A stretch of 35,035 nt of DNA from positions 1 to 35,035 of the forward strand of contig SKVW01000231.1 of assembly GCA_007129255.1 (NCBI GenBank), written 5' to 3'. Numbering within the stretch: position 1 is the first letter of the stretch; the number at the start of each line of letters is the position of its first letter. The position numbers were made by a program, and so were the translations under genes. Positions 27,441-29,366 of this stretch are shown here, in pieces. Source of the DNA: Bacteroidales bacterium (GTDB taxonomy: Bacteria; Bacteroidota; Bacteroidia; Bacteroidales; UBA7960). The notes under the pieces are model-generated. The model was given only the letters and a program-made list of their open reading frames with translations. It searched no databases and was not told where the DNA came from.

Positions 27441-27599
27441 CCCTTTCCCGCCCTGGCTACCCTCCCGGTAAAACACACGCAAATGCCTGTGACGGCCAGT
27501 TCAGGGTATGCCGTTCATTTGGGTTGGGCTTGTTTTTATTTTAACATTTCAAAGCCGAATATCCCCGCATTGGATGTGGCGCCTTTGCCGGATTTTTCA

Positions 27600-27607
27600 T
27601 ATATTTG
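27600..27607 (+). promoter_or_regulatory. Candidate -7 box for the cphA-like/iadA unit
   Basis: TATATTTG matches TAnnTTTG, about 60 nt upstream of ATG 27669. Confidence 0.4.
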
Positions 27608-27668
27608 AAAGGAACGGAACCCTCCCCACGGCCGGCGCAAAATTGTCAAACCCTAAATTGCATGCATC

Positions 27669-29366
27669 ATGAAAGCATCCGAGAGAGATTTTGACGTGAG
27701 GAATTTTTATTTCTATAATGGGCCCAACCTTTACCTTGGCTGCAGGTCGCTGGTATTTCACATTTACCTTGATCCGGAAGGCCCCGAAGTCGATTTTTAC
27801 AAACCAGCAGTTTATAATGCTTTCCCGGGCATTAAGCATTACAATGATACCACTGTGGTCGACCTGTTTGTACATGCCCTCATGGAGCTGCTGCGCATGG
27901 GTAGGGAGCTTTTCATAAAGGATTACGCCATTACTGAAGAAGGGGAAGAATACATTGTGGCTGTGGAGTTCCTGGACGATTTATCCGCAGAAAATGCCGT
28001 CCGGCTGCTCAGCGACTGGTTCAAATTCATCAATAAAGGCCGGGAAAAATCCTTTGCCCTGGATGAAAAGATCCGTTTGTTGCACGAAACATTTCAGACC
28101 TCCATTGTCAGCAACCCCACAGTTTATGCACTTTTGGAAGAAGCCGTGAAAAGGGAGATCCCGGCCTTTTATCTTCAGGAGGAAAAACAGTTTCAATGGG
28201 GCTACGGCAAAAACCAACTCCGGGGCCTGGGAGCCAACTTCCATACCGACAGCATCAAGGACACGGAATTTACCATGTATAAAGACCGGGTCACTGAGTT
28301 TCTGATCATGTGTGGTTACCCTACGCCCATGGGAACCAACTGCTTTACCGAAGAAGAAGCGGCAGATGAAGCCAAAAAACTTGGATTTCCCGTGGTGGTA
28401 AAACCGGCAGCCGGAACCAAAGGCTTTGGGATCCAGGAAAATATTGGCTCTGAACCAGAAGTCAGAAAGGCTTTTCAAACCATTATTTCCCAGGCCGGAC
28501 AGGAGGGCTGGCCTTTTGAGGGGGTCTTTGTTCAGCAGCAGATCCGCGGACAGGAGTTTCGATTGTACCTGGCCGCGGGAAAATTTGCGGCAGCGGCCAA
28601 AATGCCGTTCGACAATAACCAAAGTATTGCAGAAAAAGTTCATCCACTTAACATTAAGATGGCTGAATCCATTGCCGGGTTTTTCAACATCAAATGCCTG
28701 GCTGTGGATGTGGTTACTGAAGATCTCTCGCGACCATGGAGCAAAGGCAATTTTGGGATCATCGGCCTGCACGCCGGTCCGGCATTTTTTGAAACCAAAA
28801 CCCAAAAACCCTTCTTTGAAAAAATAGCAGAAAAAATCCTGTTCTCGCACTTTGGCTTTGGCGAACATGCCAGAATTCCCATTATCGCAGGAAATCAAAT
28901 AACCCAAAACCTTGCAGAAAAAATTACTGCCGCTGCTGCAACCCATCGAAACAACTTATTCTTTGGCAGCCTCACCAAAGAAGGGGTATTTTTTAACGGA
29001 CAATTTTTCCAAAAAAATGAAAGCCACGAACAAAATGTCAAAATCATTTTGCGCCATCCCAAAACAGAATTGGCCCTGATTAACCATAACCGTGAAAATA
29101 TTTACCAGAGCGGGTTTTCCCATGACCGGGCAGACCTGGTAATCCTGGAAAACCCCAACCAGCCAGAAGAAAAACTTAAAGAAATGATCTTGCCCGGGGG
29201 CTGGCTCATCCTCATTCAAGGCGGGGAAATACAGCTTCTGGTTAACAGGGAAACCAAAAAAACCCTTTCCTTCGAAAAAGAAACCCTGAAAGAAGAAAAA
29301 CTGCTGGAAATGCTGAACCCCCTGATAAAAGAATTGTTGGATAAATATGAACGAACCATTCCATAA
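27669..29366 (+). CDS. Shortened cyanophycin-synthetase (CphA)-like protein: N domain + reduced ATP-grasp + truncated Mur-ligase remnant; possibly a pseudo-enzyme
   Basis: FYNGPNLYLGCRSLVFHIYL; REIPAFYLQEEKQFQWGYGKNQLRGLGANFHTDSIKDTEFTMYKDRVTEFLIMCGYPTPMG...LGFPVVVKPAAGTKGFGI; HPLNIKMAESIAGFFNIKCLAVDVVTEDLSRPW; RIPIIAGNQITQN...TKEGVFFNGQFFQKNESHEQNVKIILRHPKTELALINHNRENIYQSGFSHDRADLVILEN aligns by eye with the corresponding CphA1 segments. Confidence 0.75.
   Translation: MKASERDFDVRNFYFYNGPNLYLGCRSLVFHIYLDPEGPEVDFYKPAVYNAFPGIKHYNDTTVVDLFVHALMELLRMGRELFIKDYAITEEGEEYIVAVEFLDDLSAENAVRLLSDWFKFINKGREKSFALDEKIRLLHETFQTSIVSNPTVYALLEEAVKREIPAFYLQEEKQFQWGYGKNQLRGLGANFHTDSIKDTEFTMYKDRVTEFLIMCGYPTPMGTNCFTEEEAADEAKKLGFPVVVKPAAGTKGFGIQENIGSEPEVRKAFQTIISQAGQEGWPFEGVFVQQQIRGQEFRLYLAAGKFAAAAKMPFDNNQSIAEKVHPLNIKMAESIAGFFNIKCLAVDVVTEDLSRPWSKGNFGIIGLHAGPAFFETKTQKPFFEKIAEKILFSHFGFGEHARIPIIAGNQITQNLAEKITAAAATHRNNLFFGSLTKEGVFFNGQFFQKNESHEQNVKIILRHPKTELALINHNRENIYQSGFSHDRADLVILENPNQPEEKLKEMILPGGWLILIQGGEIQLLVNRETKKTLSFEKETLKEEKLLEMLNPLIKELLDKYERTIP

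Follow-up and report, generated by a model that had tools for sequence, protein, structure and literature searches.

CphA2 has been described as a cyanobacterial enzyme (PMC9262961, PMC10206079) that naturally lacks the P-loop-M and the Mlid (PMC9427784), whereas CphA1 (SuCphA1, 7LG5; TeCphA1, 7WAC) has live G and M sites, a G-omega module, the Mlid and usually an HxxEH motif. In published work on TeCphA1 and SuCphA1, G-omega comprises TeCphA1 residues 325-399. TeCphA1 holds the primer chain through E215 and R309 and the incoming aspartate through R323 and N394, Mg being chelated by D431 and E450; alanine mutants of R323 or N394 impaired the enzyme. The DNA analysed here, referred to as the window, is a stretch of 35,035 nucleotides from a Bacteroidales bacterium (contig SKVW01000231.1), and its features are listed in Table 1.

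Table 1. Coordinates of the features of the window
Feature	Position	Strand	Basis or remarks
27-bp block, identical in G001, amid a diverged intergenic region	27582..27608	+
Probable G-omega-less CphA2-derived pseudoenzyme, 565 aa	27669..29366	+	ORF, homology, dN/dS, Foldseek
N domain, aa 1-146	27669..28106	+	No HxxEH metallopeptidase motif, like CphA2
G domain, N-terminal lobe, aa 147-313	28107..28607	+	E200, K205, K245, K251, R298 kept; R312 -> M
Altered ATP-grasp P-loop	28413..28433	+	GHKG(I/Q)GV (full-length relatives) -> GTKGFGI; GARGYGD in G001
Junction, G-omega (~75 aa) missing	28602..28628	+	6-7-residue linker FDNNQS spans the gap
Destroyed metal motif	28764..28781	+	EINAGP (E = Mg ligand) -> GLHAGP
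Mur-ligase-like M domain	28872..29363	+	No P-loop/Mlid, like CphA2; 11/12 family invariants kept
iadA, beta-aspartyl (isoaspartyl) dipeptidase, 386 aa	29372..30532	+	Begins 5 bp past the pseudoenzyme stop
HEAT-repeat protein, 279 aa	32516..33355	-	Regular short repeats; beside or near lplA in relatives too

Identity, orthology and genome context

The ORF of 565 codons was intact and free of frame lesions. A sequence search of solved structures bore out the CphA-type relationship that the original prediction had assigned to it, and the best matches were CphA2 enzymes (7TA5 of Gloeothece citriformis, E = 5e-80; 8FXH of Stanieria sp., E = 5e-79), CphA1 structures trailing widely with the same query (E = 3e-24 or weaker); the tree and Foldseek also indicated closer homology to CphA2 than to CphA1. 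The NCBIfam cyanophycin synthetase models matched the protein, but far under their cut-off. With CphA2 it shared the N-G-M order and the absence of P-loop-M and Mlid; unlike CphA2, it was devoid of the whole G-omega and of the Mg ligand Glu. Homology to CphA1 was distant and covered N, G and the beginning of M, the intact GTNGKT P-loop-M, the Mlid and G-omega of that enzyme being absent; Mur P-loop and HxxEH motifs were sought in the 565-aa protein and none was found. CphA1 (~870 aa), which the original prediction had taken as reference, was therefore a misleading yardstick and was replaced by CphA2 (629-642 aa), to which the closest solved structures belong. The early end of the M domain and the lack of GTNGKTT, also pointed out in that prediction, are both real but are ordinary CphA2 traits (PMC9427784), so that M-domain degeneracy was rejected as evidence of decay. 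The hinge difference 'VQQQI' versus 'VEKYI' was likewise rejected as a loss, since full-length relatives carry it too.

Synteny and homology mark the gene as an ortholog derived from a Bacteroidales CphA2. Its syntenic orthologs in sister genera are full-length (~636 aa) CphA2-like genes, in the order dxr–rseP–cyanophycinase–CphA2–iadA–rnz–lplA. Within the same family, eight genomes (G016, G033, G037, G039, G035, G031, G008, and G013) had such a gene near iadA; it adjoined iadA in seven of them and lay 2.8 kb from it in G008. Where contigs permitted, the neighbouring genes dxr, rseP, rnz, lplA, and HEAT were also common to all eight. The full-length proteins (e.g., G016, L082:5001-6908, with the same neighbours rseP, iadA, rnz, and lplA) were ~54% identical to the 565-aa protein over aligned positions and keep GHKG, LRR.ANISAGG, GID, and EINAGPG. 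A cyanophycinase above the NCBIfam cut-off was encoded immediately upstream of CphA2 in 7/8 of these genomes. The gene order shared by the relatives thus indicates that the window locus lost the cyanophycinase and retained iadA, whose adjacent product was a strong match (474 bits). A cyanophycinase remnant was sought in the 228-bp gap before the gene, but neither blastn nor tblastx yielded more than short matches at chance level. The 27-bp block in the intergenic region contains TATATTTG (TAnnTTTG, a Bacteroidota -7-like box) 61 bp ahead of the start codon; its GCCGGATTTTT portion may instead be the rseP terminator.

A second species of the genus carried the same short form (G001, contig SLRE01000232.1, Bacteroidales MAG CSSed165cm_562; 76% identity to the window protein). 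No further short form was found beyond the window genome in a 395-genome sample of the order, and a contig scan, with peptide patterns too narrow for forms that have diverged as far as the G023 protein described below, revealed none beyond G001.

In the window genome (95% complete, fragmented into 247 contigs) no CphA1-like protein that could act as substrate source for a CphA2 was found, and the only cyanophycinase-family protein was encoded away from the operon and had a lipoprotein-like N-terminus. The own supply of beta-Asp-Arg expected with CphA2, through CphA1 and an intracellular cyanophycinase, was accordingly missing from this genome. This cyanophycinase-family protein (156 bits, over the cut-off) was encoded on contig C127 (L067:1948-4462) beside a YfcC-like basic amino acid transporter; the two are a possible cyanophycin scavenging pair and resemble the scavenging loci mentioned in PMC10206079. 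Four relatives (G003, G011, G020, and G027) possessed iadA but neither a CphA1-like protein nor CphA2, which argues that the CphA2-derived gene was not retained here by mere inertia. Gene absences in G001 carry little weight, as that genome is only 73% complete.

Lost and retained residues of the G domain

The missing G-domain segment of the original prediction was confirmed: ~75 aa, present in the full-length sisters and corresponding to the whole of G-omega, were gone between KFAAAAKMP and VHPLNI. The alignment examined comprised three short and 54 longer sequences, and 149 of its columns were conserved at ≥95% among the longer sequences. The window protein kept all 13 of these invariant columns in the N domain (all within aa 1-125) and 11 of the 12 in the M domain, as compared to 63/92 in the G domain outside G-omega; losses were thus concentrated in the G domain (24/25 kept for N plus M vs. 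63/92; Fisher P = 0.004). In the G-omega stretch itself, 26 of the 32 invariant columns were deleted.

TeCphA1 positions were carried over by hand via the SuCphA1 alignment, and each mapped position met the expected letter. Equivalents of E215 (E200), K220 (K205), K261 (K245), R309 (R298), and D431 (D347) were kept, and H267 corresponded to K251; in G001, the K220- and H267-equivalents were Leu and Arg, respectively. Conversely, R323 was changed to M312, E450 to G366, and N452 to H368, and N394 was absent. The metal motif EINAGPG of the full-length relatives read GLHAGPA, the His of the G-domain P-loop was replaced by Thr (GHKG to GTKG), and both species had acquired H368 and E375 in the region that once held the metal site. 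In G001 the junction and the point losses recurred; these lesions were absent from 53 full-length relatives. The mapping indicated that the residues holding the chain survive, whereas acceptor binding has been lost together with one Mg ligand of the two. The complete ATP-grasp G domain of CphA2, with G-omega and Mg ligands, was thus not present, and the proposal that the protein goes further than CphA2 by losing G-domain catalysis is well supported.

Selection, phylogeny and predicted structure

The dN/dS ratio between the window gene and G001 was 0.126 (NG86; 95% bootstrap 0.089-0.171), a value that is only approximate given a dS of ~1.1. It ranged from 0.075 to 0.157 across all six segments of the gene, and neighbouring genes displayed values from 0.047 (iadA) to 0.259 (lplA). 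No stops were observed vs. ~19 expected per neutral branch, and frameshifts were equally absent; the gene therefore shows neither the dN/dS near 1 nor the disabling frame lesions of a pseudogene, and the label 'pseudo' proposed for it suits the catalyst only, not the gene.

In the tree, the stem leading to the short form was long (0.74 changes per column) and the branches beyond it were of ordinary length (0.18 and 0.19), the pattern expected from a burst of change and then renewed constraint. Since the junction and the point losses are common to both species, the simplest reading is that they split later than the loss. Another G-omega-less protein (G023, L053:6381-8177, 598 aa) fell within a paralogous clade characterised by an N-terminal extension (100/98), which forces two separate changes and suggests an independent loss of G-omega in that lineage, a placement to be taken with caution because of its long branch. 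Its frame was open, and a shuffled sequence would contain ~56 stops. Like the window genome, G023 had no detected CphA1-like protein; in contrast with the window protein, its short protein was of independent origin, with 34% identity, and no iadA was detected in the genome.

AlphaFold2 gave a confident CphA2-like predicted fold without G-omega (pLDDT 86.4, pTM 0.77; 88.9 and 0.82 for a full-length control). Foldseek ranked CphA2 first (8FXI_C, TM 0.82; 7TA5, TM 0.80, by query length); for the control model CphA2 was also first (7TA5, E = 1e-63). In the short-form model, strand 305-312, before the gap, led directly into helix 326-339, after it, so that in the model the predicted fold does not collapse although G-omega is missing. 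Catalytic residues have thus been lost while selection and, by prediction, the fold are kept, and a CphA2-derived pseudoenzyme is a well-supported description.

Possible function and wider occurrence

As the catalytic parts are lost and selection nevertheless preserves the protein beside an enzyme that cleaves bonds of the same type, it now probably binds or organises and makes nothing. Our preferred explanation, to which we assign a probability of about 0.55, is a dead CphA2 descendant maintained by selection as a non-catalytic binder of beta-aspartyl chain ends or dipeptides. The ancestor would have been a Bacteroidales CphA2 (beta-Asp-Arg polymerase) in a cyanophycinase-CphA2-iadA operon. 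The genus ancestor would then have lost its CphA1-like companion protein along with the cyanophycinase of the operon, G-omega would have been excised, and the Mg2+- and acceptor-binding residues replaced. The capacity for ligation would in all likelihood be gone, the predicted CphA2 fold being kept under purifying selection. Most likely, the product would be a cytoplasmic protein that binds a beta-aspartyl peptide chain end or beta-Asp-X dipeptides, and it may present its ligand to the neighbouring IadA or tune this dipeptidase. The leading hypothesis is that the protein binds beta-aspartyl peptides, either in concert with IadA or independently of it, because the chain-binding residues are kept and iadA is linked; retention of individual residues may, however, be structural, as only two sequences carry the short form, and adjacency to iadA, inherited from the ancestral operon, is no proof of partnership. 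Residual nucleotide binding or weak activity may persist, as K205, K245, D347, and R298 remain. A bolder version is doubtful: excision of G-omega would have twice turned CphA2-type polymerases into dedicated non-catalytic binders of isoaspartyl peptides, and the one studied here would capture, in complex with IadA, beta-Asp-Arg obtained by scavenging or damaged isoaspartyl peptides, which would then be cleaved.

The main rival is pure scaffolding, in which a dead subunit with the oligomer surfaces of N, Gcore, and M would organise IadA or another enzyme without any cyanophycin-type ligand. It agrees with the predicted CphA2 fold and with N- and M-domain invariants being the best kept, but the primer-chain residues E200 and R298 were kept as well, and we regard it as possible, although clearly less probable than ligand binding. 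The retention of K205, K245, K251, and D347 by the window protein, together with the new H368 and E375 of both species, would suit a ligase or nucleotide-dependent enzyme repurposed for a new substrate, with G-omega and the metal site replaced by other means. Against this, the E450-equivalent is Gly in both species, G001 has Leu for K220 and Arg for K251, both the R323-equivalent and the whole of G-omega have been lost, and alanine changes at R323 or N394 impaired TeCphA1; such an enzyme is unlikely. Among the roles offered in the original prediction, a binding, regulatory or scaffold protein fits best, whereas the ligase of different chemistry is disfavoured by the loss of the metal ligand and the substrate module.

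A gene decaying after the loss of its cyanophycin pathway, kept open by chance or through translational coupling to iadA, would agree with the disappearance of the CphA1-like companion and of the cyanophycinase from the operon, with the long stem branch and with the 5-bp spacing to iadA. This reading is contradicted by a dN/dS that is low in every segment and by the missing stops; moreover, translational coupling would not conserve amino acids, and in the four relatives that have iadA without a CphA1-like protein CphA2 is simply absent, which makes decay very improbable. An assembly or binning artefact joining the two ends of a normal CphA2 might be suspected from the metagenomic origin of G001 and the fragmentation of the window genome, but the same junction and point losses on independent contigs of two species, with flanking synteny intact, leave it with a negligible probability.

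CphA1-like proteins with altered motifs were also observed in Bacteroidales. In genus g5, CphA1-like proteins of 918-954 aa (L154-L159, in G039, G016, G035, G033, G029, and G031) displayed a G domain that was degraded (GHQGKG lost by replacement, N, G or D in place of the Mg-ligand Glu, and GIN instead of GID), but retained the HxxEH of the N domain and a P-loop-M, GSAGKS, that is Walker-A-like. All these genomes except G029 encoded a separate CphA2-like protein with its G motifs kept, and a division of labour between two half-dead synthetases is possible. Other CphA1-like proteins (L057:2119-4326 and L147-L151; ~735-785 aa) were without the Mlid and had an altered P-loop-M (e.g., GYSGCS, GSNGRN, GSRGKT), with E(I/V/L)NAAPD G motifs and HxxEH retained; the L057 gene adjoins iadA and CphA2.

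CphA2-type genes were present in Bacteroidales, often beside cyanophycinase and iadA, and in MAGs of several other phyla. Full-length CphA2-like genes were found at nine loci (L085, L086, L089, L099, L117, L121, L122, L131, and L134) in MAGs labelled Negativicutes, Muiribacteriota, Desulfobacterales, Cloacimonadota, SAR324, Holophagae, and Coatesbacteria. Among the open-access papers searched, none named pseudoenzyme and cyanophycin synthetase together. At this locus a single catalytic module has been cleanly deleted by nature, in a structural family that is already well studied, and a full-length ortholog in synteny can serve as control; the occurrence of CphA2-type genes beyond cyanobacteria makes a wider cyanophycin-like storage economy testable.
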